From: Frankia tisae
GTDB taxonomy: Bacteria > Actinomycetota > Actinomycetes > Frankiales > Frankiaceae
Assembly: GCF_025403405.1 (NCBI RefSeq)
Contig: NZ_JANEZT010000012.1
Span: forward strand, 1-38,728
Reading direction: 5' to 3'
Length of the DNA: 38,728 nt
The stretch's first letter is position 1, and each line of letters opens with the position of its first letter. Positions 21,887 through 37,149 of this stretch are shown here, piece by piece. Made by a program: the position numbers and the translations under genes. The notes below the pieces were generated by a model. It saw only the letters and a list, made by a program, of their open reading frames with translations. It had not been told where the DNA came from and did no database searches.

Positions 21887-23113
21887 TCATTCGGTCCCGC
21901 CGTACATCGCCCGGCCGCGGAACTCCCGTGCGTCGTTGCGGTAGTAGGGGCGCAGTTCCCGGATCACCTCGCCTACCCGGCCCGGACACACCACGCGCAG
22001 GTCACCGTCGCCGAGGGTGAACCGCCGGACGTCGGCGTACCGACCGGAGATCGCAGTCAGCTGACGTGGGATGCCCGGATCCTCCCGTTGGAGTTCGTCG
22101 ACGGCGCGGACGACCTCGGCCCGCACCGTGGCCAGCGCCTCGGCCCACCAGCTTCCCGGGGCGGGCAGCGGCCAGGTGTAGACGGAGGCGACCAGCTCGT
22201 GGATGCCGAGCAGTTGGGTCACGACTTTCTCCGCGTCGTCCAGATCCAGTCGGAGATACCGCAGATGGTTCAGGAACGCCGTGCGGTACTGGGATCGGTG
22301 GTCGCCGTGCCCACGCAGGGACACCCCGACGGCGGGGGGCGCGACACTGGAATGGGCGCAGTACAGCTCGTCGTCGAGGTCGACCAGGCGAAGCACGGCA
22401 CTGGCCGTCGCCGCGAGCGTCTCGAACCGGGCGAGTCCGTCCGGCCCCAGCCGCTCCTGCACATCCGCTGCCACGCTGACCAGGTCGAGCGCCTGGGCCA
22501 GCGGCTCGCGCCAGGCGGGGCCCAGCGCATCGAGAGTCCGGACGGCCAGTTCGGCCTCCTGGTCGGACGGCAGCCGCACCATGGTGCAGCGTAGCCAGAC
22601 GGGGAAGGCGGCCTCCCCGACGGGGGGCGTCAGACCCAGTGCGTCGAGCGGAGATGAGCTCAGGAGATCGCGCATGAATGCGTCGAAAGGCGTGGCGGAT
22701 GCGTCGCCATCAGCGGCGGTCCTGGCCGGCCCGAGGCCGGTGGGCTCCTGCCCGCTGTGGCCGGAGTCGGTGGGGTCCGTCGGGTCGGTGGGTGCCGGGT
22801 GCGAGCGGCCCCGGCGGCCCGCGCGCAGGATCTCTTCCACCTCGCCGATGGCACCCTCCCACACCTTGGCGTTCTCCCGGACCGACGCGCTGGTCAGGGC
22901 GTGCCACGCCTGACGAATCGCCGCCCCGGTCTCGGCCGCGGCCGGATCGGTGTCCGCCCGCGCGAGGAGCAGGGGCAGATACCGCAACGTCACGAGCGGT
23001 TCGTCCTCCCCGTCCGCGCCGCGGGCACGGCCGCCTCCGTCGAGGGAGTAGACGGTCCCCGGGCCGTCAGGCCTGCCGGCTCGATCGGGACCGCCGGCCG
23101 CCGCTGTCTGCAT
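21887..23113 (-). CDS. Unrecognised protein, last gene of the NTPase operon
   Basis: A 408-residue protein I do not recognise. It has no signal peptide or membrane segment. An N-terminal helical part (LVTLRYLPLLLARADTDPAAAETG, then VWEGAIGEVEEILRAG) is followed by a low-complexity Pro/Thr/Asp linker at about residues 103-135 and a conserved-looking helical C-terminal half (LRCTMVRLPSDQEAELAVRTL, YRTAFLNHLRYLRLDLDDAEK). The ATG at 23113 has AAAGG six bases upstream. It lies 77 bases after the ASKHA ATPase gene on the same strand, with a tandem repeat and hairpin between. Its position suggests an adaptor or partner of the ATPase/GTPase pair. No enzymatic motif was found. Confidence 0.7.
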   Translation of the reverse strand: MQTAAAGGPDRAGRPDGPGTVYSLDGGGRARGADGEDEPLVTLRYLPLLLARADTDPAAAETGAAIRQAWHALTSASVRENAKVWEGAIGEVEEILRAGRRGRSHPAPTDPTDPTDSGHSGQEPTGLGPARTAADGDASATPFDAFMRDLLSSSPLDALGLTPPVGEAAFPVWLRCTMVRLPSDQEAELAVRTLDALGPAWREPLAQALDLVSVAADVQERLGPDGLARFETLAATASAVLRLVDLDDELYCAHSSVAPPAVGVSLRGHGDHRSQYRTAFLNHLRYLRLDLDDAEKVVTQLLGIHELVASVYTWPLPAPGSWWAEALATVRAEVVRAVDELQREDPGIPRQLTAISGRYADVRRFTLGDGDLRVVCPGRVGEVIRELRPYYRNDAREFRGRAMYGGTE

Positions 23114-23127
23114 CGCATACCTTTCGT

Positions 23128-23159
23128 CGTCGTGGCGTCGTGGCGTCGTGGCGTCGTGG
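23128..23159. repeat. Intergenic tandem repeat, 8-bp unit x4
   Basis: CGTCGTGG is repeated four times without error. The last copy pairs with CCACGAC at 23169-23175, giving a 7-bp stem with a 9-base loop between the ASKHA gene and the next gene of the operon, which could attenuate or process the transcript. Confidence 0.85.
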
Positions 23160-23190
23160 GGTCCCGCGCCACGACGGGCCTGCCCAGCCG

Positions 23191-26100
23191 TCAGTGCGTG
23201 CCGTTGAAGGGGTAGAGGTCCGCGTCGAAGTCCTGCACCGTCGGGCTCATCGGCACGGTGAGCACCGCGCCCGGGCGCAGTTCGACCTCGGCGAGGTCTC
23301 GGGCCGCCAGGTACTCCGGCCAGCCGAGGTGGATCCGGGCCCGTCCCGTCGCGTCCAGCGACAGCAGGTGGACCGCTCCCGGCGCCGCCTCAACCGGTGG
23401 GACGGCCAGCTCGCCGAGTGTCTCGGGCGCCCCCTCCGGTGGCAGCGCGACCAGTTCCCAGAACCCGGTCCGGCCCGGCGGCGGCAGCGGGATCCGGGAC
23501 AGCACGCCCCGCACCAGGCGCCCGGGCTGCTCGGCCGGTTCGCGCGGGGCGACAAGGACGAAGGTCTCCGGGAAGGCGCTCGACGCATCGACCGGCACGG
23601 GCAGGACGAGCGTGCCCGCCTTCCGCGCGTCCTGCCCCTTCGCGACGGCGACAATCGGCCAGGGCCATCCGGTGATCTTCCGTTCCCCGGAGGTCGACCC
23701 GAAGTGTCGGTGGTTACCGCCGCCGGAGGTGGAGGGCAGGGCGGCGCCCACGTCCACACCCGGTCCCTCGACCTTGATGTGGCCCCGACCGAGGCTGAGG
23801 TTGACCGACGCGCGCAGACCGTCGTCGACGACGACCTGCATGAGTACCCGGGGACCGTGGTGCTGGGAGCTACCCGCCCACCTCTCGCCCGTCACGTCGT
23901 GGCCGCCCGCATGATCCCTGACCCGGAAACGGGCCCACTGGATCGGCACGGTGGCGTCGATCGGCCGGAACAGTTCCACGTCGTTGCGCAGCTCCATCCA
24001 GCGGGACCGCGCGGACGGCCGGGTGCCCGCCACGCCGCACACCAGCGGGTCGCCCATGCGCAGCACCCGATCCGGCCCGCCGATCGCGCCGACGAGGTCG
24101 AACGAGCACGGCAGCCTGGTAACCAGCGTGTTGGTCTCGATCTGCAGGCCGGTGCGCAACGCGACCCGGTCGACGCCGCTGTCGTCCGCCTGGGCGTACC
24201 GGACGCTGTGACCGAACCCGACCGCCCAGGCCACCCCCATCGACACGGCCTCCTTGGCGGACCGTTCCTCGACGACGACCGCGTCCTCGTTCCAGACCAG
24301 CGGGGTGCCCTCCCGCAGGTCGGTGACGGCCAACCGGTCGACGACGGCCTGGCGCACCATGGGCATGCCGCTCGTGCGCCCGCACAACGCGATCTGGTCC
24401 AGGGCCAGGGCATCGTCGGGAGCTGCGCTGAACACGCCCACGACGAGGTCGGCCGCGATCTGCGCCGCCCGGTCGACGACCGGGCGGACGACGCGGGCGA
24501 AGTCCGCCGGGGACAGGTGCAGTTCGATCGCGGGCGCGTCGGCGAACTGCGCGGGCAGATCGACGAGGGTCTGCGCGTTCGGGATGGGATACGGCTTGCC
24601 CATGACCCGATCCCGCGCGCCCAGGGCCTTCTTCGCCTGTTCCGCCTCATCCCACAGCTTGGCGAACACGGCGGCCCGCTGCGCCCCGTGCGTCGGGACC
24701 AGCCTGTCCAGCTCCCGACGCACCGCGCCGGGGACGGGCTTGGCCGCGCCCTGGTCGAGGATGCGCGCGGCGAACGACCGGTGGCCACCAGGTGCCGCGG
24801 CATTCTCGGGCCCGTGCCCGCCGTCCGTCCCGGCCTTCCAGGCGAGCAGCTCGTCGGCGATCAGTGCCTTGATCCAGTACAGCACGCGCAGGGTCAGATA
24901 GTTGCCGCCGAGCTGAGGATGCCCGGTGGCGCCGAGTACCTCGGGTCGCAGCTCGAAGCGGCGGCCGTAGGCATCGGCCTCGATCTCGGTGAGGTTGAGG
25001 CGGACCAGTGCGATGTCGGTGGTACCGCCGCCGATGTCGATGACGAGGATGATCCGCCGCCAGCGCCCGCCCCCGCCGCCGGTGCGCACCGGATGCGCGC
25101 CGGCCCGCAGCAGCTCGGCGCCGAGCTCCTCACTGGCTCCCACCGTGAGCATCGTGAAGTACAGCGCGGCGCCCACGCCCTCGTCGAAGGTGCTGTCGCC
25201 GGTGTCCGCGTCCCGGCCGGTGACCGGGTCGCGAAACGCGCGGCCGACCACCGCCATGAGGTGTTCGCGCACGTCCGGCGGCATCATCGTGGGGTAGGTG
25301 ACGACGATGCGCCCGCGTAGCTGGCGCCGCTTCTCCTCGGTGTCGATCGTCCTCGTGATGCGGGGGTCGCGGGCCGCGAAGTCCTCCAGCGGGTTGCGCA
25401 GCGCGGCGAACGCCCTCTCGACGAGGTCAGCCGAGGTGTGCTTGGCCGCGGCCCGCTGGGCGTCCGCGTCGAGCTGGCGGAACTCGGCCAGCGAGTCCAG
25501 CCGGGGCGGGGCACCGAGGTTGCGGAACTCCGACTTGAGACCGCGCACGGTGACCTCGACGCCGGGTGGCGGAACCTCCCGGTGCCACAGCCGGAGGTCG
25601 AGCCGGCGCAGGTCGGTGATGTGCACGGCGCTGGACAGGGTGCTGTACGTGTCATCGTCGGCGGAGTACGTCACCGGGAACATGCCGGTCAGGTCGCGGG
25701 GTGGTACGGCGAACGCCGCGCGGAAACAGTCGTCGCGTAGCCGGGCCAGGGCCCGGACGGCCGGGGAGTCGGCCTGGCGCGCCACCACCTCGACGGCCGC
25801 GGCCACGCTGCTGACAACGGCCTGGTTGTCGTCCATCCCGTCGGCGAGGAAGGCCGCGATGTCGGCCAGGTCCCGGCTCTCCCCTCGCGCGCCGAGCTCC
25901 TCGGCCAGCCGCGCGCGCAGCGTCGCCCACGCGTCGACCTCCACCTCGGCCGGCGCCTCGGCGCTCAGCAGGGTCGCGAACTCCTTCGCCAGCACTTCGG
26001 CCTGGTGGTAGTCGATCGGGGTGGTGAGGTCCACCTTGTCCCGGTAGCTCATCGTCGCCGTGATCGCCGTCGTCCCGAAGTCGATGACGGTGAAGCCGAT

Positions 26101-26625
26101 CGCCTGGTTCGACGCCGGCTCCTCGGCGGCTCCCGTTCCGTCCTTGGCAGCCCCCGCCGACGCCTCGCCAGCCCCCGCCGACGCCTCGCCAGCCCCGGCC
26201 GGCGAGGCGGCGAACCAGTCAGTGGGCAGCTCCAGTCGCAGGGTGGCCTGGGTGGTGCCACCGGGCCAGGTCGCGAACCAGGTGATGGCCACGGTCTGAC
26301 CGGCGGCGGCCGCCGCGACGTCGGTCGGCAGGTCCACCGGGCGGGTCAACGGCGTCTCGATCGTGGCCGGCGCGTCCGGTGGCACGGGTTGGCACCAGGA
26401 GTCGAGCAGCCAGCGCCGCAGTGCCTCGGGCGTCGAGCCGGCCACCTCCACTCGGATCGCGGGCAGCCGCTGGCCGTCCCGCTCGGCGATCAGGCGGATG
26501 CGGGGCATCACGTAGCCTTGGTCGAGGACCCCGCCGGGGCTGGCCGCCCAGCCGTCACCCATCCACGGTTGGTAGGGCTCGCGCAGCGCGGCACCCGGGG
26601 TGGATCGGATCACGAACCCGCTCAT
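23191..26625 (-). CDS. Giant Hsp70/actin-fold (ASKHA) ATPase
   Basis: A 1144-residue ATPase of the Hsp70/actin superfamily. The phosphate-1 loop FTVIDFGTTAITATMSY is near residues 178-194, the phosphate-2 loop VIDIGGGTTDIALVRL at about 528-543, and the adenosine-type motif LCGRTSGMPMVRQAV near 742-756. Some 340 residues separate the two phosphate loops, far more than in DnaK, so a large insert sits in the first lobe. Residues 1-175 and the last 300 are beta-rich extensions with no canonical DnaK substrate domain. The ATG at 26625 has GGGAGGA seven bases upstream. The dynamin-like GTPase gene ends about 70 bases upstream. The layout recalls the SrfB-type Hsp70-like proteins encoded with GTPases in enterobacteria, but homology to them is untested. 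Confidence 0.82.
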   Translation of the reverse strand: MSGFVIRSTPGAALREPYQPWMGDGWAASPGGVLDQGYVMPRIRLIAERDGQRLPAIRVEVAGSTPEALRRWLLDSWCQPVPPDAPATIETPLTRPVDLPTDVAAAAAGQTVAITWFATWPGGTTQATLRLELPTDWFAASPAGAGEASAGAGEASAGAAKDGTGAAEEPASNQAIGFTVIDFGTTAITATMSYRDKVDLTTPIDYHQAEVLAKEFATLLSAEAPAEVEVDAWATLRARLAEELGARGESRDLADIAAFLADGMDDNQAVVSSVAAAVEVVARQADSPAVRALARLRDDCFRAAFAVPPRDLTGMFPVTYSADDDTYSTLSSAVHITDLRRLDLRLWHREVPPPGVEVTVRGLKSEFRNLGAPPRLDSLAEFRQLDADAQRAAAKHTSADLVERAFAALRNPLEDFAARDPRITRTIDTEEKRRQLRGRIVVTYPTMMPPDVREHLMAVVGRAFRDPVTGRDADTGDSTFDEGVGAALYFTMLTVGASEELGAELLRAGAHPVRTGGGGGRWRRIILVIDIGGGTTDIALVRLNLTEIEADAYGRRFELRPEVLGATGHPQLGGNYLTLRVLYWIKALIADELLAWKAGTDGGHGPENAAAPGGHRSFAARILDQGAAKPVPGAVRRELDRLVPTHGAQRAAVFAKLWDEAEQAKKALGARDRVMGKPYPIPNAQTLVDLPAQFADAPAIELHLSPADFARVVRPVVDRAAQIAADLVVGVFSAAPDDALALDQIALCGRTSGMPMVRQAVVDRLAVTDLREGTPLVWNEDAVVVEERSAKEAVSMGVAWAVGFGHSVRYAQADDSGVDRVALRTGLQIETNTLVTRLPCSFDLVGAIGGPDRVLRMGDPLVCGVAGTRPSARSRWMELRNDVELFRPIDATVPIQWARFRVRDHAGGHDVTGERWAGSSQHHGPRVLMQVVVDDGLRASVNLSLGRGHIKVEGPGVDVGAALPSTSGGGNHRHFGSTSGERKITGWPWPIVAVAKGQDARKAGTLVLPVPVDASSAFPETFVLVAPREPAEQPGRLVRGVLSRIPLPPPGRTGFWELVALPPEGAPETLGELAVPPVEAAPGAVHLLSLDATGRARIHLGWPEYLAARDLAEVELRPGAVLTVPMSPTVQDFDADLYPFNGTH
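26149..26204. repeat. In-frame 21-bp repeat in the ASKHA gene
   Basis: AGCCCCCGCCGACGCCTCGCC occurs twice in tandem (26149-26169, 26170-26190) with a third partial copy. It encodes GEASAGA repeats in the linker just before the first phosphate loop. Confidence 0.8.
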
Positions 26626-26692
26626 CGGGCTTCCTCCCGTTCTCGCTTCCACATCGCCGGCCCACGCCGGCCCTGCCGTCGACGTGCTGGGC

Positions 26693-29233
26693 TCACGACC
26701 CGCTGCCGGAGGTCCGGAGCAGCTCCTCGAGGTGCCGCGCCGACGGGATGCCGGCGCCGAGGTTGTCGAGGTAGCGGTCGAGGACCGGCCCGATCCGGGC
26801 GAGCAGCTCGACGATCTCGCCCTGCACGAGTTCGGTCAGCCGGCTCTCGGCCGCCAGCCGCATCCGGTTCACGGTGAACACGTGGCGGTCCCGGTGGGAC
26901 TGCGAGCGGTTCACCTCGTCCGTCACGCGGATGACCTCCGGATGCCACGGCAGCCTCCGGTCGGGGTCGAAGGGGGCCGCCCTGCGCCGGCGGTCCTGGC
27001 GGGCTTCCGCGGCGGCTGCGGCCGAGTCGAGTCCGGTCAGCCAGGTGGCGACCCGGTGCCGCATTCTGGCGTCGCCGACGAGGCGGTCGATGCGGCTGAC
27101 CCGGTCGGGGAACAGCCGTACGACGAGCGCCCGGATCCGCTCGTCGGCCAGCCGCGGCTCCAGCAGTGCGAAGCGCTCCCGCTGGCGGCCTTCCCAGTCG
27201 CCGACGACGTCGAGCAGAACCGCGCGGTACCTCGTGACGAGGGAGGCCGCGCTGCGGGCGAACTGGTCGACGAGCACGCTGCCGTGGTTCGGCACGGCCA
27301 CGCCGTTCGTCGCGCCGTACTGCGGATTGTCGGGTCGGGGGCCGAGGTCGTCGTCGACATCGTCGTCGACCGGCCCGTCATCGAACGGGTGGTCGTCGGG
27401 GTGGCCGCTGCCTGCGGGGCCGGTGGCCTGGTCCAGCTGGCGGATCCACGGATGGGTCGCGTCCAGTCGATCGATGATTATTCCCCAGTGCGGCCAGCTG
27501 TCGACCTCCTGCCGGGAATCGGCCGCGATCGCCCGCAGCAGGGCAACGCGCGTGCCGTCCCGCTCGGTTGTCAGCCGATGCGGGGCGCGGAAGTGGGCGA
27601 GGTCGCGGCGCATCGCGTTGGTGGCGGCGGCGAGCTCGCCGACCAGCTCGCGCAGGTCCCGCCCATCCTGGTCCGACGTCGGCGTGTTCCGGTTGCGCAA
27701 CCAGGTCAGCTGCTCGGCGTAGCGGCTCGTGGCGAGATCGAGCCGCTGCTCCGCCCGGCGCAGCTGGGCGATCTTGTTGGCGAGGCCGTGCACGCGGGCG
27801 TGCTCCTCGACCACGCGGCGCAGCTCCGACAGACCGCTGTCGTAGCCGTACTCGCCCAGCAGCTCGGCGATCCGCCGTCCCGGACGTCCCTCGTCGCCGC
27901 GTGCGAGAGCCTGCCCGGTGGCGCTCCACGCGCTGCGCTGCGCGACGGCCGACACCGCGTCGATGCCCGGGGGAGCGACGCCCGCGCCGGCCAGCGCCGC
28001 CAGCGCCGACACCAGCACGAGGCGGTCGAGCGGTTCCCCCCGAGCCTGGCTGCGCACGGTGAGGTTCTCGGCGGCGACGCACACATCCCGCAACAGCGAG
28101 GCCCGGTCCAGCAGGCCGTTCAACCGGGTCGCGGGGGCGCCGACGGGGGGACCCACCTGGTCGAAGAAGTTCGCGGCGACCACGGTCGCCCGGTTGAGGT
28201 CGTCGTCGCCGTAGCCGAGCGTGCGCAGCTGTGCGTAGTAGGCCTCCAACGGGTGCGTCACCGGCTTGGGCGCGTGCAGGACGGCGAGGATCGCGTCGAT
28301 GCCGCGCAGCTCGTGTCGGCTCAGGTAGAGATCCCGGCTGCCGGAGCCGTCGGCGCCGAGCCCGGGGAAGTCCCGGATCTCCACCTCCAACCCGTGCAGG
28401 TCCTCCAGGGGCCAGGCCCGCGGGTCGACCGACACCGTGCAGACGATCCGGCGGATCAGCGGGAACGCCGCCGCGAGGTGTTCGGTTCCCAACGGATCAG
28501 CCCAGGTCAACGGCCGGCGGCGGGGTCGATACTCGGGATAGGCGGTGGGCACGGCGCTCTGGGCGGGCAGGTTCACCCCTTCGGCGATCAGCCCGGGGTC
28601 GATGCGCCAGGGCCGCCCGCCCAGCGCCGCGGGCTGCTGGTGGACCTCGCCGAGTGCGTCCCGGATCCGAGCGAGCTCCAGCGCCATCTGCTTGCCGAGG
28701 TTGTCCGGGCCGGCCTTCCCCCACAGCCGCGTGCGGCACCAGGCGTCGACCCGTTCCCAGCCCTCGGCGCGGGGCCGGGCGCCCCGCAGCGAGTCGGCCT
28801 CCAGATCCAGGCCGGACGCCTCGCTGTGCTCGACGAGCCGGTCGAGGATGAACGTGATGCACGCGTCGATCTCGTCCACCGTCATGAACTCGACGGTCGC
28901 CTCGGTGATGCTGGTAGGCGCGCCGACAGTCCCGGCGCGCAGCCGCAGGACGGTCACGTTCCCCGTGGTCGGCGACGGATTCGTCGGCAGGAGGCGAGGT
29001 GCGCCGAGCAGCGCGCCGAGCAGCGCCGACTTCCCGTTGGAATACCCGCCGACGGTGGCGATGGACACCGGTGCGGAGGCCTTGTCGAGGATCGAGGTGG
29101 CGAGGTCGCGGATCTCCTGGCGAAGCTCGGTCAACCGACCTGGGCCCGACTCGGGCGGTGGGTCGTTCGCCAGGCCGGTGAGCGCGTCCGCCGCCTTCCT
29201 GCGGAGCGCAGCGATCTGTTCGTACTCGGTCAT
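26693..29233 (-). CDS. Dynamin-like large GTPase
   Basis: An 846-residue GTPase of dynamin style. The G1 loop is GGYSNGKSALLGALLG (GGYSNGKS at 62-69) and is followed by LLPTNPSPTTGNVTVLRL, the usual G2 threonine region of bacterial dynamins. G3 is DFPG at 288-291 and a G4-like NFFD is at 355-358. Long helices follow, with an acidic linker near 605-630 (FDDGPVDDDVDDDLG). No membrane helix is seen; membrane contact would come from an amphipathic tip or from the DUF4407-like partner. The ATG at 29233 overlaps the stop of the upstream membrane-protein gene (TGATG), so the two are translationally coupled. Bacterial dynamins remodel or guard membranes, including in phage defence; which applies here is not known. 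Confidence 0.85.
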   Translation of the reverse strand: MTEYEQIAALRRKAADALTGLANDPPPESGPGRLTELRQEIRDLATSILDKASAPVSIATVGGYSNGKSALLGALLGAPRLLPTNPSPTTGNVTVLRLRAGTVGAPTSITEATVEFMTVDEIDACITFILDRLVEHSEASGLDLEADSLRGARPRAEGWERVDAWCRTRLWGKAGPDNLGKQMALELARIRDALGEVHQQPAALGGRPWRIDPGLIAEGVNLPAQSAVPTAYPEYRPRRRPLTWADPLGTEHLAAAFPLIRRIVCTVSVDPRAWPLEDLHGLEVEIRDFPGLGADGSGSRDLYLSRHELRGIDAILAVLHAPKPVTHPLEAYYAQLRTLGYGDDDLNRATVVAANFFDQVGPPVGAPATRLNGLLDRASLLRDVCVAAENLTVRSQARGEPLDRLVLVSALAALAGAGVAPPGIDAVSAVAQRSAWSATGQALARGDEGRPGRRIAELLGEYGYDSGLSELRRVVEEHARVHGLANKIAQLRRAEQRLDLATSRYAEQLTWLRNRNTPTSDQDGRDLRELVGELAAATNAMRRDLAHFRAPHRLTTERDGTRVALLRAIAADSRQEVDSWPHWGIIIDRLDATHPWIRQLDQATGPAGSGHPDDHPFDDGPVDDDVDDDLGPRPDNPQYGATNGVAVPNHGSVLVDQFARSAASLVTRYRAVLLDVVGDWEGRQRERFALLEPRLADERIRALVVRLFPDRVSRIDRLVGDARMRHRVATWLTGLDSAAAAAEARQDRRRRAAPFDPDRRLPWHPEVIRVTDEVNRSQSHRDRHVFTVNRMRLAAESRLTELVQGEIVELLARIGPVLDRYLDNLGAGIPSARHLEELLRTSGSGS

Positions 29234-30630
29234 CAGGAGTTCCCCTTCCCTGCCCCCGGTGGCCGGCGCGCCCGCCATTCCAGCGACCGCACCCCGTTGC
29301 GTTCGACGAAATCGATGTAGTCCAGTTCGGTGGTGTGCCAGGCCCGCATACCCGCCCGAGCCACGCTCGCCTCCAGGGCCGTCGCGTAGCGACGGGCGTC
29401 GAACATCGTGGCGTTGTGCTCGCTGAGCGCGGCGTCCTGCAGCGCGATGGCCTCGTCGTAGGGGCTCGGCCGGGCGAGCATCTTGATGACCAGCGGCAGC
29501 AGGTCGAAGGCCAGCAGGGTCCCTCGGATGATCCACAGCCACTGGGCGAGCGACCGGTTCTCGTGCACGATCTGGTTGAGGGCCGCATGGCGGGCGAGGA
29601 AACCGTCGCTGCGCGCCACCTTGGCGAGAAAGTCGGCGGGAGCGGCCGGCAACGGCTTCGCCGTCAGGCCCTGGACCGACCGATCGGTGGTGTTGCGCTC
29701 CCGGATCTCCGCCTGGAGCGCGTCATTCCTGGTGTTGTAGTCACTGACGAGAAGGTGGTAGGCCTTTCCGGTCGGCAGGAACTCCTCCGCGGGGGTGATG
29801 TGGGCACCCTGGTCGGTCACCTGCGTGAACAGCCCGTCGACCACCGGCTGGTCGGCGCCGATCCTTGTGTCGAGGCTCGCGAGTTTCGCCTGGAGCGGGG
29901 CGAGTTCTTCGGCCCGCAGCTGCTCCCGCTTGTCCTGGATGAGGGTGTGGTGGGTGTCGGCGAGTTTCTGATTGACCTCGGGGGCGAAGATGATGAGCAG
30001 CAGCGCTTCGCTGACGAGCAGCGCCGCGAGGACCGCGAGCGTGAAACGCAACGCGTACTTCGCGAGGGTCGACACCCGGGACGGCGCCGGGTCGAGGTCG
30101 GGCGGCACGGGCCGCCAGCCGGCGGCGGGTCCGGTGTTGTCGGGGAGGTCCGGGGCGCCGGGGGGAGCCGCGGCCGCGGGCCGGTTGGCCGCCGCCTCGG
30201 CCGCGGCGCCCGGCGAGCGATCCGGCGCGAGCAGCCCGGTCACCAGCACGGTGTCGTCGCCTGCGCCGCGTCGGCCCGCCCGGCCGCGTCGACGGCGCTC
30301 GGACCGGTGTGACCGGGGCCGTTTGGGTTCCATCACGATCACCCGGTCGGCGGCGAAGATGAACATCGCCCACAGCAGCCCGAACGGTAACAGCAACGGA
30401 TTGAAGTGACCGACCACCACCGAGCCGAACACCGTGAACGAGGTGGCAGCCAGGATCGCGACGAGCAGCAGGAACAGGCCGTACGCGGAGTAGAGCAGCC
30501 GCAGGCGGATGCTCCCCAGCTTGGTGGGGTCCACGCCCGCGCACCACAGCAGCACTCGGGTCGGTGGGGATGCCCGCCGGACCTGCGGTAGCGCGTCCTC
30601 GGCCGGGCGGGACGCGGTCGGATCTGACAT
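29233..30630 (-). CDS. DUF4407-like four-helix membrane protein
   Basis: A 465-residue inner-membrane protein. Four helices are predicted: LLYSAYGLFLLLVAILAA, LLLPFGLLWAMFIFAADRVIV, FTLAVLAALLVSEALLLIIF and LWIIRGTLLAFDLLPLVI. The second helix with its trailing Asp-Arg and the spacing of the others fit DUF4407. A basic and Pro-rich loop separates helices 2 and 3. Between helices 3 and 4 is a long, partly coiled region (DKREQLRAEELAPLQAKLASL) that probably lies outside the membrane. The ATG at 30630 has GGGGGAGA just upstream. It is first in an operon with the dynamin-like GTPase and probably anchors that complex. DUF4407 function is unknown. Confidence 0.82.
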   Translation of the reverse strand: MSDPTASRPAEDALPQVRRASPPTRVLLWCAGVDPTKLGSIRLRLLYSAYGLFLLLVAILAATSFTVFGSVVVGHFNPLLLPFGLLWAMFIFAADRVIVMEPKRPRSHRSERRRRGRAGRRGAGDDTVLVTGLLAPDRSPGAAAEAAANRPAAAAPPGAPDLPDNTGPAAGWRPVPPDLDPAPSRVSTLAKYALRFTLAVLAALLVSEALLLIIFAPEVNQKLADTHHTLIQDKREQLRAEELAPLQAKLASLDTRIGADQPVVDGLFTQVTDQGAHITPAEEFLPTGKAYHLLVSDYNTRNDALQAEIRERNTTDRSVQGLTAKPLPAAPADFLAKVARSDGFLARHAALNQIVHENRSLAQWLWIIRGTLLAFDLLPLVIKMLARPSPYDEAIALQDAALSEHNATMFDARRYATALEASVARAGMRAWHTTELDYIDFVERNGVRSLEWRARRPPGAGKGNS

Positions 30631-30697
30631 GTCTCCCCCTCTCGCCCGTTCGCGCACGGTAGGAGAGGCAGGGCCAATCCGGCGACCTCACCTGTAG

Positions 30698-30732: not shown

Positions 30733-31593
30733 ATGAGCGTGGATCGACGATCGTTGCTCGGCCAGCGGCGGCTCCTGCACGCCGTGGACATCGCTGGCTT
30801 CGGATCCCTGCCCGGCCACCGGCAGAAGGAGGCCCAGAAGGTTCTCAAGAGGCTGATGCGCCGCGCCTTCGCGGATGCGGTGGCGAATCCCGGCGAGGTG
30901 TATCTCGAGGGCGACAAGGGTGACTCGGCCCTCGTGGTGTTGCCGGCAGCCATCAACGAGGCCCGCACCGTCGCGGACCTGGTCCGGTCCATCCGCAACC
31001 AGGTGAGCACCCATAACCGGCGCGGTGCCTTTCCGCAGCCGTTGCGGCTGCGGCTCGCCCTCGGCCAGGGAGTTGTCGCCGGGGCGAGTCCGAAGGGGGG
31101 GCTCAGCGGCGCGGACGTCATCAGGGTTTTTCGCATGCTCGACGCCGCCCCCACCAAGGACGCGCTGACCGAGGACCCGTCCCGTCAGCTTGTTCTCGTG
31201 CTGACTGAGGACCTGTTCACCAGCGTGGTCGTACCCGCGGATTCCGAGCTGCAGCCACAGGATTTCACCATCATCACCGTGCAGGAACGGGACGCCGAAG
31301 CCCCGGTGGACGCCTATCTCTGGGTCGGGCCCGGGATCGGCGTCGAGGGCGAGGGGCCGGTGGACCGGCGCTCGGGACCCGGCGCCGGACCCCAGGTGCG
31401 GGGCGCCACCGATCTGGCCACCGGGAAGACAGCCGTGCACGCCACGGATGCCCCGGCCACGGATGTGCCTGCCACGGATGCCCCGGCTGCGCCCGGTGCC
31501 GACGGTCGGCCCACCGGCCGCGTGCAGCCGAGGGGGCTGGTGCCGCCCGAACGGATCGGTGAATGGTTCATCGAGCGTCCGTTCGGGCCCTGA
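30733..31593 (+). CDS. Class III nucleotide-cyclase-fold protein
   Basis: A 286-residue protein whose first 180 residues resemble a class III nucleotide cyclase domain. LHAVDIAGFGS carries a first metal-type Asp (D19), LEGDKGDSALVVLP a second (D64), with RLRLALGQGVVAG as the following strand. The last 90 residues are a Pro/Ala/Asp/Thr-rich tail with short ATDxPATD repeats, ending in a conserved-looking PPERIGEWFIERPFGP. Whether it makes a cyclic nucleotide or only binds one is open, because the substrate-specifying residues are not recognisable. It diverges from the DUF4407/dynamin/ASKHA operon and converges on the next gene with 28 bases between. No Shine-Dalgarno sequence is present. Confidence 0.68.
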   Translation: MSVDRRSLLGQRRLLHAVDIAGFGSLPGHRQKEAQKVLKRLMRRAFADAVANPGEVYLEGDKGDSALVVLPAAINEARTVADLVRSIRNQVSTHNRRGAFPQPLRLRLALGQGVVAGASPKGGLSGADVIRVFRMLDAAPTKDALTEDPSRQLVLVLTEDLFTSVVVPADSELQPQDFTIITVQERDAEAPVDAYLWVGPGIGVEGEGPVDRRSGPGAGPQVRGATDLATGKTAVHATDAPATDVPATDAPAAPGADGRPTGRVQPRGLVPPERIGEWFIERPFGP

Positions 31594-31621
31594 GAGCAGG
31601 GCTGTCGGCCGCCGCGCGGAT

Positions 31622-32434
31622 CTATGGACGTGCCGCCGAGTGCGGTGGCAGCGCGACGCGGAAGCGGACCGGCTCCCGGGCCGGTGCCGGGACGTCCTGG
31701 AACCGGCCCCGACGGAGGCGGCGGACCTCCGCTTCGGCGCTGAGAGTGCCGGCCAGCTCGGCGGCGGCGGCCGGCAGCTCCAGCAACACCATCCCGGCGA
31801 TGTGCCGATGCCACAGCGGCCGGCCCGGCTGGCCCTGGAACGTCCAACCGAACGTGCGGTTGCCCTCTCCGAACGGGGTGCACACCGGCCGTGCCTCGAC
31901 CGGCGGGGCCGGGTCGCCTCCCCTGGCGACGACGTACTCGCCGAACTGGGCCGCGAGCCCGCTGAACTCGCGCAGCCACCGGTCGTCGATCGTGGACGCG
32001 CGGTCGTCCTCCGCCGCCGCCCTCGGCTCGGCCGGGACCTCGACGACCTCCCGGCTGGGAGCAAGCTGTAACGCTGCGGCGTACTCGCCGTCGATGTCGA
32101 CGCTGACCCGCACCCGGCCGTAGCTCAGCTCGCCGGGCAGCTCGTCGAGGTCGAACGGGATCGGCACGGCGAGGTGGCGCATCGACTCCACCCCGACGCG
32201 CAGGAAGAAGGACGCCGGGAACTCCTCCGGTGGCATGATCGACGGGATGATGTAGCTGAACGTGACGCCGCCGACCTCGGACTCGTCCTGCTCGCCGTCC
32301 CTGCTCAGAGTGCTTTCCGTGATGACGAAGGCGCGACGGGCGAGGATCTCGTCGGCTCGCAACGGTCGCATCATCGGTACCGGCGGCGGCGAGATCGGCT
32401 CGCCCGGCTGATCCGACGCATCACCCGAATACAC
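31622..32434 (-). CDS. Unrecognised beta-rich protein
   Basis: A 270-residue protein I do not recognise. It has no signal peptide or membrane segment. The N-terminal half alternates short hydrophobic strands (FPASFFLRVGVESM, YGRVRVSVDIDGEY), and the C-terminal half has TFGWTFQGQPGRPLWHRHIAGMVLLELPAAAAEL. The GTG at 32434 has AAGGGGG seven bases upstream. It diverges from the CHAT protease gene with 72 bases between, so the two may share control. A substrate, inhibitor or sensor of the protease is possible from position only. Confidence 0.65.
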   Translation of the reverse strand: MYSGDASDQPGEPISPPPVPMMRPLRADEILARRAFVITESTLSRDGEQDESEVGGVTFSYIIPSIMPPEEFPASFFLRVGVESMRHLAVPIPFDLDELPGELSYGRVRVSVDIDGEYAAALQLAPSREVVEVPAEPRAAAEDDRASTIDDRWLREFSGLAAQFGEYVVARGGDPAPPVEARPVCTPFGEGNRTFGWTFQGQPGRPLWHRHIAGMVLLELPAAAAELAGTLSAEAEVRRLRRGRFQDVPAPAREPVRFRVALPPHSAARP

Positions 32435-32506
32435 GTATCGCCCCCTTGGTCACCTTGGGTGCATCACAATACGGACGAGACTGATCAGCGGTGACGGGGG
32501 ATACCG

Positions 32507-35500
32507 GTGACATCGGGGGAAACGCGTGTCGGCCTGGCCGGCTGGCGTGTCGGGCAGGAGCATCGGCGGCGCCTCGACGGCTGGAAGGCGGGAACAGGTG
32601 GCCCGGCACGCACGGCCGTCAGCGCGCCACCGCCCAGCACGGATGGCGGGGACGGCGGCTCATCAGCACGCATCAGGTGCCTGGTCGGCTCGGGCGAGGT
32701 CGACCTCGGTAGCGGGCAGGCGCCGCTGGCCTCGCCGCCGGTCTCGCCGCCCGCCGCGTCGGGTCGGGGCGGGGCGGCGCACGGGCCGTCAGTCGCCCGC
32801 CGCTTCGCCCGCGCGTGCTGGGCGCTGCATCCCGACGGACGGCTGCTGTTCGCGCCCGCGTCGGCCCACGCCCGTCAGGACCTCTTCCCGCTGTCCGGCT
32901 GGTACGAGACCACGGCGGACGGCTGGCGCGTCTCGGCCGCGCGGTCCGGTGCCCCGGGGCTGGACGCGGCGGTCCAGGGACTGATCGCGCCGGCCGTGAG
33001 CGGCTGGCGGTTCGTCGGCGAGTACCGCTGCCGGGACGATGAGCGGCTGGTGGTGGTCCCGCTGAGCGCGGCCCTGGCCGACGCTGAGGATCGGCCGGAC
33101 CGGCTCGGGGTGGACCTGCTTGACGGGGTGCCCGTGCCCCTGATCTTCCGGGTCCAGCTGACCGGCACGGTGGGCACGGCCGCCTTCGGGCCGCTGGCAG
33201 CCGATCTCACCGTCGCCGACCCGGTGGCGGGCAGCGCGGATCCGGTGGAGATCCTGCTTGCCGCGGCCGAATCGCCGCCGGCCGAGCTCGGCGACGTCGG
33301 CGAGGTGCTCTGGCTGACGAGCGTTCCCGGGCTGAACCGCATCGAGACGGCGGACTATGGTCTGTCGATCTCCGCCGGCACGCTCGACTGCCGGGTGCGT
33401 GGCGGCGACGAGGCCGCGCTCGGGGTGACGGTCTCCGTCGAGGCTCCCTACCTCGGCGCGATGCCGGTGCCGGTCGCGCAGGCCCGCCTGGTGCTGCACT
33501 TCCGCCCGGATGGCACGCGGGGGCCGGCATCGTCGGGGGGCGATGGCCGCGGCGGCCGTGGTGGTCGTGGTGGTCACGGCGGTTCGGCGAGCGTGGCCGG
33601 TGCGGTGGTCCCGGCCGGTGCGGCGGGCGTCGAGGGGCACCCGGTCCGGTGGAGGGTGGAGGGCCGGCTGACCGCGCGGACGGTGGCGGCGTTCGGCCCG
33701 TCCGTCGGCTATGACGCGGCGGTGTCGGGAACGGCCGTGGCCCGTACGCCGGACGAGCTGACCGGGACCGCGTTCGAACGGCAGTGGGCCGCCGGTCGTC
33801 GCCGGCCGGGCCTGCTGCCCGGCGTCATACCCGGTGAGCCCGGCGGTGTCGGTGGCACAGCTGGTGACGACGGCTGGCGGGCCGTCCGGGACCTGGCCTT
33901 CGACCGCGTGCTGGCACACGAGCGCGCCGCCGCGACCCCGCTGCTGTACCTGGCGCTGGCGGGATGCCGTGCCGAGCAGGAACGGACCAGGTCCGATCCG
34001 CTCCGTCAGCATTCGGTCCTGATCGACGAGATGAACATCCTCACCCGTCTCGTCTCCTGCCACCGGTCCGACGACGACCCGGGTGCCCTGCTGCGGGTAC
34101 TGCGGGACAGCACGGCCGTGCACAGCACCCTGGGACGCGTGCCGTATCTGGCGCCGATCGAGCGGGCCACGGCCTCCCTCGTCGTCGCCAACCAGACCGA
34201 TGCCCTCGAACAGCGACGGCGCCAGTTGGCCGACGAGCTGGAACGGATCGACCTGCTCGACGCGTCCACCGACGTGTTCGAGGCGCTCGCGGACCTGTTC
34301 TGCATCCTCGGACGGCCGGATGCCGCGCTCGCGGCGGCGGAACGCGGCCGCGCCCGCACGCTGGCCGATCTTCTCGCGGGCGCCGCCGTGGAGGCGCTGT
34401 CCCCGGCGGCGATCCGCGCGGCGGTGACGGCGGGGGGCCGTACGGTGCTCGAGTACCTCGTCGGACCGGAACGCAGCTGGGCCTGGCTCGTGTCGCCGGC
34501 CGGGGCGATCACCCCGGTGCCCCTCGCGGTCACCCGGGCAACTCTCGACACGCTGACGGGAGAGCTGCTGGCCGCGCTGGATCCGACCGTCGCGGCCGAG
34601 CCGGGCGGCTCGCGCCCGACCCGTCATCCCACCGAACTACTGGCCAGGCTGCACGATCACCTCATCGTGCCGATCCCACCGGCTGCCCTGCCGGGTGACG
34701 GCGACGGCCTGGCGGTCGTGCCCCACGGTGCGTTGCTGCGGGTGCCATGGACCGCCCTGCTCGACCGCGGTGTGATGGGTGCCGGCTACTCGGCTGGTGC
34801 CGGCTGCTCAGCTGGTGCCGGCTGCTCAGCTGGTGCCGTCGACGGCCGCTATCTGCACGAGCGGTTCGCCCTCAGCCTGCTGCCCTCGATCGGCACGCTG
34901 GCCACCCTCGGGATCACCGCTGCGCCGCCGGCCAGACCCAGCGGGCTGCGCGCGCTGGTGAATCCCACCCCGATGCCCGCCCGCCTGCCCTCACTGCCGG
35001 TACTCGAGGAGGCCGAGGAACTCTTCCGGGATCTCTTCCCGCCGGGTGCCACCCGGGTCCACTCGCGTGCGGAGGCGACGCTCGACCGGCTGCGGGAGGC
35101 GCGGGCGGCGGAGGTGATCGTGCTCGGAACGCACGGCGTCGCAGACTGGACGCGGGCCGGCGACCGGTACATCGTCCTCGCGCCGCCCTCGGACCCCGAC
35201 CCCGACTCCGGAGCCGGCGGGAACGCGGGCTTCGTCGACATCCGCGCCCTGTCGCTGGACAGCCCGCTGGTCGCCCTGCTCGCCTGCCGATCCGGGGTGG
35301 GCCCGATCACCAGCGACGGCGTACTGGCGATCAGCCGCGCCTTCCTGCTCGCCGGGGCACGCTGCCTGCTCGCGAGCCTGTGGTGGGTCGGAGAGGAGAC
35401 CGGTCTGGAGATCGTCTGGCGGATGGTGCGGATCTGGCTGACCGAGGGGACAAGCCGGGCGGAGGCGTTTCGCCGGGCGGTGGCGGGTCTTGCGGCCGAA

Positions 35501-35557
35501 TACCGCCACCACCCGGAAAAATGGGCTGCCTTCCAGCTCACCGGCGCCTGGTCGTGA
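32507..35557 (+). CDS. CHAT-domain (caspase-like) protease
   Basis: A 1016-residue protein with a C-terminal CHAT domain of the caspase clan. The catalytic His is H876 (VIVLGTHGVADW) and the catalytic Cys is C927 (LVALLACRSGVG). The C-terminal helices with RAFLLAGARCLLASLWWVGEE are also typical. Residues from about 460 to 640 form helices like those preceding CHAT domains in other proteins (AALAAAERGRARTLADLLAG). The N-terminal 400 residues are beta-rich and unfamiliar, with a Gly/Arg-rich spacer near residue 345. The GTG at 32507 follows a G-run. CHAT proteases in bacteria act in immune and cell-death pathways, cleaving partners after a sensor is triggered. The partner here is not identified; the stop lies four bases from the convergent cyclase-fold gene. 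Confidence 0.88.
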   Translation: MTSGETRVGLAGWRVGQEHRRRLDGWKAGTGGPARTAVSAPPPSTDGGDGGSSARIRCLVGSGEVDLGSGQAPLASPPVSPPAASGRGGAAHGPSVARRFARACWALHPDGRLLFAPASAHARQDLFPLSGWYETTADGWRVSAARSGAPGLDAAVQGLIAPAVSGWRFVGEYRCRDDERLVVVPLSAALADAEDRPDRLGVDLLDGVPVPLIFRVQLTGTVGTAAFGPLAADLTVADPVAGSADPVEILLAAAESPPAELGDVGEVLWLTSVPGLNRIETADYGLSISAGTLDCRVRGGDEAALGVTVSVEAPYLGAMPVPVAQARLVLHFRPDGTRGPASSGGDGRGGRGGRGGHGGSASVAGAVVPAGAAGVEGHPVRWRVEGRLTARTVAAFGPSVGYDAAVSGTAVARTPDELTGTAFERQWAAGRRRPGLLPGVIPGEPGGVGGTAGDDGWRAVRDLAFDRVLAHERAAATPLLYLALAGCRAEQERTRSDPLRQHSVLIDEMNILTRLVSCHRSDDDPGALLRVLRDSTAVHSTLGRVPYLAPIERATASLVVANQTDALEQRRRQLADELERIDLLDASTDVFEALADLFCILGRPDAALAAAERGRARTLADLLAGAAVEALSPAAIRAAVTAGGRTVLEYLVGPERSWAWLVSPAGAITPVPLAVTRATLDTLTGELLAALDPTVAAEPGGSRPTRHPTELLARLHDHLIVPIPPAALPGDGDGLAVVPHGALLRVPWTALLDRGVMGAGYSAGAGCSAGAGCSAGAVDGRYLHERFALSLLPSIGTLATLGITAAPPARPSGLRALVNPTPMPARLPSLPVLEEAEELFRDLFPPGATRVHSRAEATLDRLREARAAEVIVLGTHGVADWTRAGDRYIVLAPPSDPDPDSGAGGNAGFVDIRALSLDSPLVALLACRSGVGPITSDGVLAISRAFLLAGARCLLASLWWVGEETGLEIVWRMVRIWLTEGTSRAEAFRRAVAGLAAEYRHHPEKWAAFQLTGAWS
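34778..34838. repeat. In-frame 18-bp tandem repeat inside the CHAT protein gene
   Basis: GGTGCCGGCTGCTCAGCT and close variants occur three times plus a partial copy, encoding GAGYSAGAGCSAGAGCSAGA. It is a flexible loop about 80 residues before the catalytic His. Copy-number change would keep the frame. Confidence 0.85.
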
Positions 35558-35561
35558 CGCC

Positions 35562-36215
35562 TCACCAGGCCCAGGCGGCGACGGTGCGACCGTCGTGGAG
35601 CAGAACGCGGACGGGACGGAACCTGTCGGCGTGGATCCGAAGATCCCGTCCGTCCGGGTCGGCCCGCCGCGGGCCGGCCGCCCGCCACCGATCATGCACC
35701 CGCAGATCGTGATAGATCCGCGGGGAGACCAGCACCTCGACATCCCCGTCGGGGTTCGGGCCCGGCGCGTCGCCGGCCCGCGGCCGTGGCTGCACGGCGC
35801 CACCGCACAGGCGCCGGACGGAGTCGACGACCTCACCGACGAAGCGTTCACCGGCGAGCATCGCGAGCCCCTCGTCCACTGCGATGCGCACCATGATCCG
35901 GTGCTGCGGTGGCCGCCGGATGTTCAGCCGCCGGGTGGCGATCCGCAGGAAGTGGGCCAGCCGCCCGATCATCCCGGGCTCGTCCATCCCGACCGCGAGC
36001 AGGACGACGGCGCCGTCCGGCTCGACCTGCCGGCTGATGTGCAGGGCAGTCAGCCCGGCCGCGCGCATGGCGGCCTCGAGCAGACCGAGGACCACGGCAC
36101 CGCGCTCGATCTCGCTCGACACCCGCCCGCGGACCATGGCACCGTCGCCGACCCGGCGCACCGCCAGCCCGAGTCGGCGAATCGCCGGTCCGACCGGGGG
36201 AAGCGGACCCGTCAC
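35562..36215 (-). CDS. Second, degenerate cyclase-fold protein
   Basis: A 217-residue protein whose pattern parallels the cyclase-fold protein at 30733: a helix (GLLEAAMRAAGL), a strand pair with an Asp (ISRQVEPDGAVVLLAVG), a helix (RLAHFLRIATRRLN) and a strand (RIMVRIAVDEG), then GERFVGEVVDSVRRLC. The equivalent of the first metal Asp is missing from RGRVSSEIERGAVV, so it is probably not catalytic. The GTG at 36215 has GGAGG six bases upstream, much better than the longer frame to 36404. It sits between the CHAT gene, convergent by four bases, and the Crp-like gene 166 bases upstream on the same strand. Confidence 0.6.
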   Translation of the reverse strand: MTGPLPPVGPAIRRLGLAVRRVGDGAMVRGRVSSEIERGAVVLGLLEAAMRAAGLTALHISRQVEPDGAVVLLAVGMDEPGMIGRLAHFLRIATRRLNIRRPPQHRIMVRIAVDEGLAMLAGERFVGEVVDSVRRLCGGAVQPRPRAGDAPGPNPDGDVEVLVSPRIYHDLRVHDRWRAAGPRRADPDGRDLRIHADRFRPVRVLLHDGRTVAAWAW

Positions 36216-36381
36216 GTGCCACCTCCGCGGGAGAACCGACGACCTGCGGGCCGTCCGGGGAGCGTGACGCAGCCGTGCGATGGTCACCCCATCATCCGAT
36301 GGGCACCGGCGTGGCCATCCATGCTCCCGGCACCGGCACACCATGCTCCCGGCATCGGCGCGGCCAGCGGTTCCCGCGGAT

Positions 36382-37149
36382 TCAGCCGGCGACTCCGACG
36401 CCATGGGCGACGCGCCGCAGTCCGGCTTCGTCTTTTATCACCAGTCCGCCCCGCGCGGACTCGGCGAGAATTCCGTCGGCGCGTAGCCGGCTGATTCCGC
36501 GTTGTACGGATACCTCGGCCGCATTGATCAGCCCCGCGAGGTCACGCTGGCTGAGGGGCAGGCCGATGACGACACCCCGGGGAAACGAGCGTCCGTGCGA
36601 CGATGACAACCGCAGGAGCAGCCGACTGAGCCGCACGAGGGTGCTGCCGGTGAGCGCGGCACGGTCATCCATCATCGAGCGGAGCCGGTCGGCCAGCATC
36701 GCCTGCAAAGCTGTGTTCGCAGCCGGATACCGGTCCAGGAACTCGCGAAACGCCACCGCCTCGATCACCCGGGCGACGACCGGCGAGATCACGGTGACGG
36801 TCGCGGAGCGCGGCGATCCACTCAGCATCGCCATCTCGCCGACGACGTCACCCGCCACGCGAAGGGCGATGAAGGCATCGTCACCACCCTCGGTCGTCAC
36901 CGTGACCTTGGCGGTCCCGGTGAGCAGGGCGTAGACGCGGGTGCTGGGATCACCCTGGTGCAGCAGGGCCCGGCCGGTCTCGAACTCCTCGTGCCGGCCG
37001 AGGGTGAGCAGGGCGGCCCTTGCCGGCGCGTCGAGCAGGGCGAGCAGGCTGCCCGGGTGCCAGCGGCCCGGCCCGCCGTTATGCGGGCGAGAATGCATCG
37101 CCGAGCCCTGACGGAGCCGATCGGAACGTGTTTGAGCGATGTCACGCAC
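36382..37149 (-). CDS. Crp/Fnr family transcriptional regulator
   Basis: A 255-residue regulator with a cyclic-nucleotide-binding domain (about residues 35-150; LLHQGDPSTRVYALLTGTAKV, GDVVGEMAMLSGSPRSATV) and a C-terminal winged helix (PLSQRDLAGLINAAEVSVQRGISRLRADGIL). The phosphate-binding segment GEMAML is followed by SPRSAT, the order and residues of Crp cAMP-binding pockets, so it may bind a cyclic nucleotide. The GTG at 37149 has a G-run six bases upstream; an ATG at 37098 is an alternative. The neighbouring cyclase-fold gene makes a nucleotide-responsive unit likely, though the ligand is unknown. Confidence 0.85.
   Translation of the reverse strand: MRDIAQTRSDRLRQGSAMHSRPHNGGPGRWHPGSLLALLDAPARAALLTLGRHEEFETGRALLHQGDPSTRVYALLTGTAKVTVTTEGGDDAFIALRVAGDVVGEMAMLSGSPRSATVTVISPVVARVIEAVAFREFLDRYPAANTALQAMLADRLRSMMDDRAALTGSTLVRLSRLLLRLSSSHGRSFPRGVVIGLPLSQRDLAGLINAAEVSVQRGISRLRADGILAESARGGLVIKDEAGLRRVAHGVGVAG

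Follow-up and report, generated by a model that had tools for sequence, protein, structure and literature searches.

Five genes of Frankia tisae, encoding a Crp/Fnr-family regulator, two relatives of class III nucleotide cyclases (cyc1 and cyc2), a CHAT protease, and the uncharacterised protein g31622, form a conserved unit. They lie in the window studied here, a contig of 38.7 kb (38,728 nucleotides, 73% GC) from a genome of 7.07 Mb. We regard it as evenly balanced whether this unit is a version, equipped with a CHAT protease, of an alarm module that in actinobacteria couples Crp to a cyclase and is akin to Pycsar in its logic. The pairing of such cyclase homologues with Crp, together with the linkage of their relatives to PycTM, strongly suggests a nucleotide signal that is read by Crp.

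A conserved unit of five genes

The genes between 30733 and 37149 were correctly called and placed in the earlier note, and the unit reads as follows.

cyc1: 30733..31593, plus strand; stand-alone class III cyclase-like protein that keeps D19, D64, and R134, with the class III Asn replaced by Ile
g31622: 31622..32434, minus strand; uncharacterised protein that forms one polypeptide with cyc1 in two further genomes
CHAT protease: 32507..35557, plus strand; variable N-terminal part followed by the CHAT domain (34634-35545) with H876/C927
cyc2: 35562..36404, minus strand; degenerate cyclase-fold protein that has lost its first metal Asp; uncertain as to its start, with the conserved portion at about 35565-36194
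Crp/Fnr-family regulator: 36382..37149, minus strand; has an intact phosphate-binding cassette signature (GE..A...PRSA) and directly precedes cyc2 in transcription

Frankia sp. AgB32 (G004), which belongs to the same genus, keeps the order of all five genes and of an adjoining core block of four more, with protein identities of 50 to 69% except for the block gene g21887 (30%). The order is likewise conserved in AiPs1 until the contig ends inside the CHAT gene. Two genomes of another family, both from one genus (G184 and G050; genus g23), carry the unit as one operon consisting of Crp, a cyc2-like gene, CHAT, and a gene in which g31622 and cyc1 are a single polypeptide; because of this fusion, g31622 can be tied to cyc1. 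The earlier note had grouped Crp, the two cyclase-fold proteins, and the CHAT protease and had supposed a conserved linkage of the latter to its neighbours. The gene order in AgB32 and the five-part operon in G184 and G050 bear out both suppositions, but the note had missed the fifth conserved gene, g31622, and the block at 21887-30657.

The proposed protease dyad is intact: the CHAT domain (PF12770, E value of 3.7e-36) covers residues 710-1013, and H876 and C927 are found at exactly the expected places. The CHAT protein had no sequence match in the PDB. In AgB32, a second gene (L037:15792-17222) encodes a counterpart of the CHAT N-terminal region, with 46% identity to residues 79-417, that lacks the protease domain; its product is possibly a substrate or a decoy.

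Three genome sets were used for the surveys: 58 genomes of relatives, 246 genomes of the class, and 393 class genomes for the profiles of g31622 and of a GTPase from the adjoining block. The g31622 profile matched 7 of the 393 genomes, in five of which (G000, G004, G012, G050, and G184) CHAT and cyc1 adjoin it; in G013 and G003, both were absent from the stretches fetched. This makes the CHAT version of the module rare, and in the genomes covered it is known from two lineages. g31622 itself has no Pfam domain over the cut-off. It is predicted with low confidence to be strand-rich, based on a model from a three-row alignment (mean pLDDT of 49), and the fold matches of this poor model, mixed beta proteins at root mean square deviations of about 7-27 Å, were uninformative. 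An origin of g31622 from CATRA-C was considered and found to be unsupported: PF20270 had no match in the window's genome, and in the six genomes searched it had one match each in G004 and G013, on contigs other than these loci.

Cyclase relationship and active sites of cyc1 and cyc2

In a Pfam scan of 20 proteins of the window, neither cyc1 nor cyc2 gave a domain over the cut-off. A 20-row family profile of cyc1 (A4), compared with solved class III cyclases, matched 3mr7 (E value of 8.8e-7), Ma1120 (5d0g; 5.8e-5), and 3et6 (0.0019). The same profile picked cyc2 from the whole genome at an E value of 1.1e-9, and an hhalign comparison placed cyc2 in the cyc1 family at 1.3e-12. Judged by these profiles, cyc1 is a class III cyclase homologue, and cyc2 belongs to its family in degenerate form.

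The catalytic roles in class III cyclases fall to a metal-binding pair of Asp residues and to an Asn and an Arg that act on the transition state. The Asp pair is present in cyc1 as Asp19 and Asp64, as the earlier note had proposed: Asp19, Gly-Asp64, and Arg134 occur in all three Frankia copies, and cyc1 retains D, D, and R in four of the four complete CHAT modules as well as in the AiPs1 copy. Of the Asn and the Arg, cyc1 has only the latter, with Ile in place of the Asn. The reported loss of the first Asp from cyc2 was confirmed by alignment; the second position is still Asp, so that the pair is incomplete. The first Asp is missing from cyc2 in all four CHAT modules, and one Arg column is common to the four proteins. 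The C-terminal tail of cyc1 (31400-31590) is of low complexity, with repeated Ala-Thr-Asp; after the repeats comes a short LVP-centred motif, which AgB32 has as well.

The structural comparison with class III cyclases and CRISPR Palm domains suggested in the earlier note was run on cyc1. Its AlphaFold model, from a three-row alignment, was poor (mean pLDDT of 39). Among the 50 Foldseek matches listed for this model (E values of 1.4e-4 and weaker), 49 were class III cyclases and one was a GGDEF protein, which with such a model weakly supports a cyclase fold; none of the 50 was a CRISPR Cas10 chain.

In heterodimeric class III cyclases, such as the C1/C2 pair of mammalian adenylyl cyclase, the metal Asp pair is present in one subunit and missing from the other. 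cyc1, with the pair, and cyc2, without it, resemble this arrangement; they differ from it in being encoded by separate genes and in the lack of the class III Asn in cyc1.

A Crp-linked cyclase family and its ties to Pycsar

The identification of the regulator as a Crp-family protein with a cyclic-nucleotide-binding domain was upheld by Pfam matches to cNMP_binding (E value of 1.1e-19) and HTH_Crp_2 (1.5e-13) and by the intact signature of a cyclic-nucleotide pocket. In 18 aligned Crp proteins, the phosphate-binding Arg of this pocket is invariant and the Glu nearly so; the contacts that these residues make in PycTIR and in CRP are set out in PMC11224242. The PADLOC PycTIR match of the window's Crp spans the cNMP-binding domain only.

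Relatives of cyc1 were found in 31 of the 58 relatives' genomes and, at an E value of 1e-8, in 46 of the 246 class genomes. Their surroundings were surveyed in 74 loci (60 stretches chosen mainly for open frames of <400 amino acids and 14 earlier ones) with a Crp profile built from five cyclase-linked regulators. Of the 57 places in frames of ≤400 amino acids, 38 have a Crp gene no more than 1 kb away, always on the same strand and in 34 cases within 300 bases, versus 1 of 14 places for longer frames (Fisher P value of 5.8e-5). The Crp gene lies ahead of the cyclase gene in 39 of 39 same-strand pairs. The distance matrices of Crp and cyclase proteins correlate across 38 full pairs (r of 0.835, reached in 0 of 2,000 permutations), a correlation for which shared species ancestry partly accounts.

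The genes that follow such pairs vary. In six operons of the family, one downstream gene forms a single BLAST group, whose member at L096 is PycTM by Pfam (E value of 2.1e-17); PADLOC PycTM models match L096, L041, and L115. Among the 46 family-bearing genomes there were 20 PycTM matches, spread over 15 genomes; 9 of the 20 matches have a family member no more than 8 kb away, versus 0.078 expected. These nine linkages are not independent, since seven of the genomes come from one genus (g24); the other two come from two further families. For CHAT, matches within 8 kb of the cyclase family numbered 4 of 127 in the 46 genomes (compared by eye), and the idea that CHAT usually partners these cyclases was therefore rejected. 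The earlier note had envisaged a nucleotide signal, made or sensed by one cyclase-fold protein, that controls both transcription and protease activity. This model is supported in part: sequence profiles and conserved gene order favour its cyclase fold and its linkage, but the CHAT count does not extend it to cyclase neighbours in general.

Several other arrangements were observed. In the Frankia-family operons L082, L085, L087, L094, L104, and L105, Crp and a cyclase-fold protein without the Asp pair are followed by two gene families; the tested member of the first is a HipA-like kinase (PF20613) and that of the second a DUF3037 protein. Apparent EAD1-cyclase-TIR fusions (for example, L013 and L034) occur several to a Frankia-family genome; EAD1 and TIR_2 were both confirmed by Pfam in two fusion proteins, and the cyclase segment has no Pfam model. 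Cyclase-family genes also lie on Streptomyces plasmids (L135; 10 plasmid records match one member). On a plasmid of Streptomyces sp. NBC_00466, the row consists of Crp/Fnr, a "Pycsar system effector family protein" on the opposite strand, the cyclase homologue (annotated "hypothetical protein"), and a TPR protein. In three other plasmid stretches, for which the gene table is incomplete, the cyclase homologue had no neighbour annotated as Crp or Pycsar. In G124 (L066:233-1811), the gene that comes after a cyclase gene, in the same orientation, matches PycTM weakly (PADLOC E value of 7e-4). Next to them is a row of DUF4407, dynamin-like, Hsp70-like, g21887, and Crp genes, and a further dynamin-like gene follows at L066:3829-5787.

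Pycsar joins a PycC cyclase to a PycTM or PycTIR effector, with cUMP or cCMP as the signal, and PMC11224242 describes it as a two-part system of cyclase and effector. The family described here is like it in having a class III-type cyclase as putative signal maker, a cyclic-nucleotide receptor, and PycTM beside many relatives of the module cyclases. It is unlike Pycsar in that a Crp transcription factor is present, frequently together with an nSTAND3-like gene, and in that CHAT would be the effector in the window. Because PADLOC PycC models matched none of the five cyclases tried, the cyclases are not filed as Pycsar.

The nearest published text is that of Kaur et al. 2020 (PMC7159879), which describes cNMP cyclase domains of actinobacterial NTP-dependent conflict systems with EAD and peptidase or TIR parts, and links CRP-like factors to some related conflict systems. 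Many cyc1 homologues, which look like EAD1-cyclase-TIR fusions, resemble these systems. Unlike these systems, the 20 window proteins scanned gave no match to MoxR, vWA, VMAP, GAP1, or EAD, and neither of the words CHAT and dynamin occurs in Kaur et al. The open-access literature searched yielded no account of an operon that joins Crp and a cyclase to either CHAT or PycTM; most subscription papers fell outside the search.

Competing explanations and the adjoining block

In its most specific form, which we put forward tentatively, the alarm-module reading describes a nucleotide-gated caspase-like pathway: active cyc1 and degenerate cyc2 would form a split class III cyclase under the tuning influence of g31622, and its product, a cyclic mononucleotide, would arm both the CHAT protease and a Crp regulator dedicated to the module. 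The unit would then be one of a large unnamed actinobacterial Crp-cyclase family, other members of which use PycTM or nSTAND3-like NTPases. In the alarm-module reading itself, a trigger, possibly sensed through g31622, would lead cyc1 to make a cyclic mononucleotide; cyc2, with its Arg kept and its metal site lost, would serve as a C2-like partner; the nucleotide would bind Crp, which would switch on the module; and CHAT would act as the effector, cutting a cellular protein in defence or in response to stress. The trigger and the order of these events are guesses.

Several observations weigh against the alarm-module reading. The heaviest is that 11 of 35 Crp-linked family members with called genes lack one or both Asp residues: the 4 cyc2 proteins of the CHAT modules and 7 Frankia-family proteins (L082, L084, L085, L087, L094, L104, and L105). 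The existence of such members means that part of the family works without being catalytic. The class III Asn, replaced by Ile in cyc1, is also absent from most relatives. PycTM was not found in the window's genome, and PADLOC PycC models matched none of five cyclases tried (window cyc1, L096, L041, L112, and L124) up to an E value of 1. The module genes in the window do not form one operon but lie on alternating strands; CHAT stands near the cyclase family in only two lineages, and the G184 and G050 copies of CHAT are 90% identical and come from close relatives. No palindrome was common to at least five of eight promoter stretches, and a shared Crp operator was thus not found among them.

The Asp-deficient members lend themselves to another explanation, in which the cyclase-fold proteins are not enzymes but regulate Crp or CHAT by binding nucleotides or proteins, and Crp answers ordinary cellular cAMP or direct contact. 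That cyc2 and the seven Frankia-family proteins stand beside Crp even without the metal Asp speaks for this account, as does the missing Asn of cyc1. We nevertheless consider it doubtful: D, D, and R are retained by 23 of the 35 Crp-linked members, 7 of these with the Asn as well (one further member has D, D, H), and the linkage to PycTM argues for a nucleotide that is made.

The CHAT protease might instead serve the adjoining block, which comprises four genes.

DUF4407 protein: 29233..30657, minus strand; divergent from cyc1
dynamin-like GTPase: 26693..29233, minus strand
large Hsp70-like protein: 23191..26652, minus strand; PF00012 match (E value of 8e-4) below its cut-off
g21887: 21887..23113, minus strand; uncharacterised protein

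This row recurs in actinobacteria, and its GTPase profile matched 7 of the 393 class genomes; a dynamin pattern scan of genome contigs picked out two Frankia only. If CHAT were a processing protease for the block, the Crp-cyclase genes would only regulate block expression. The block does adjoin the module in three Frankia genomes and elsewhere has Crp and a cyclase (G124) or g31622 (G013) as neighbours. The CHAT-Crp-cyclase operon of G184 and G050, however, has no block nearby, and the blocks of G028 and G286 have no CHAT, Crp, cyclase, or g31622 in the stretches fetched, and we think this role of CHAT unlikely. The block is an associated second block outside the module core, probably a membrane-linked arm that frequently accompanies modules of this kind. 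Coincidental clustering of unrelated genes, at which the mixed strands of the window might hint, is highly improbable, being already refuted by the synteny with AgB32 and by the operon with its gene fusion in another family.

The alarm-module reading would place the window's genes among cyclase homologues that stand in fixed order behind Crp, with PycTM, nSTAND3-like, HipA-like, or CHAT partners. If it is true, one cyclic-nucleotide signal both drives transcription and fires effectors in these actinobacteria, and bacterial caspase-like proteases gain a nucleotide trigger.

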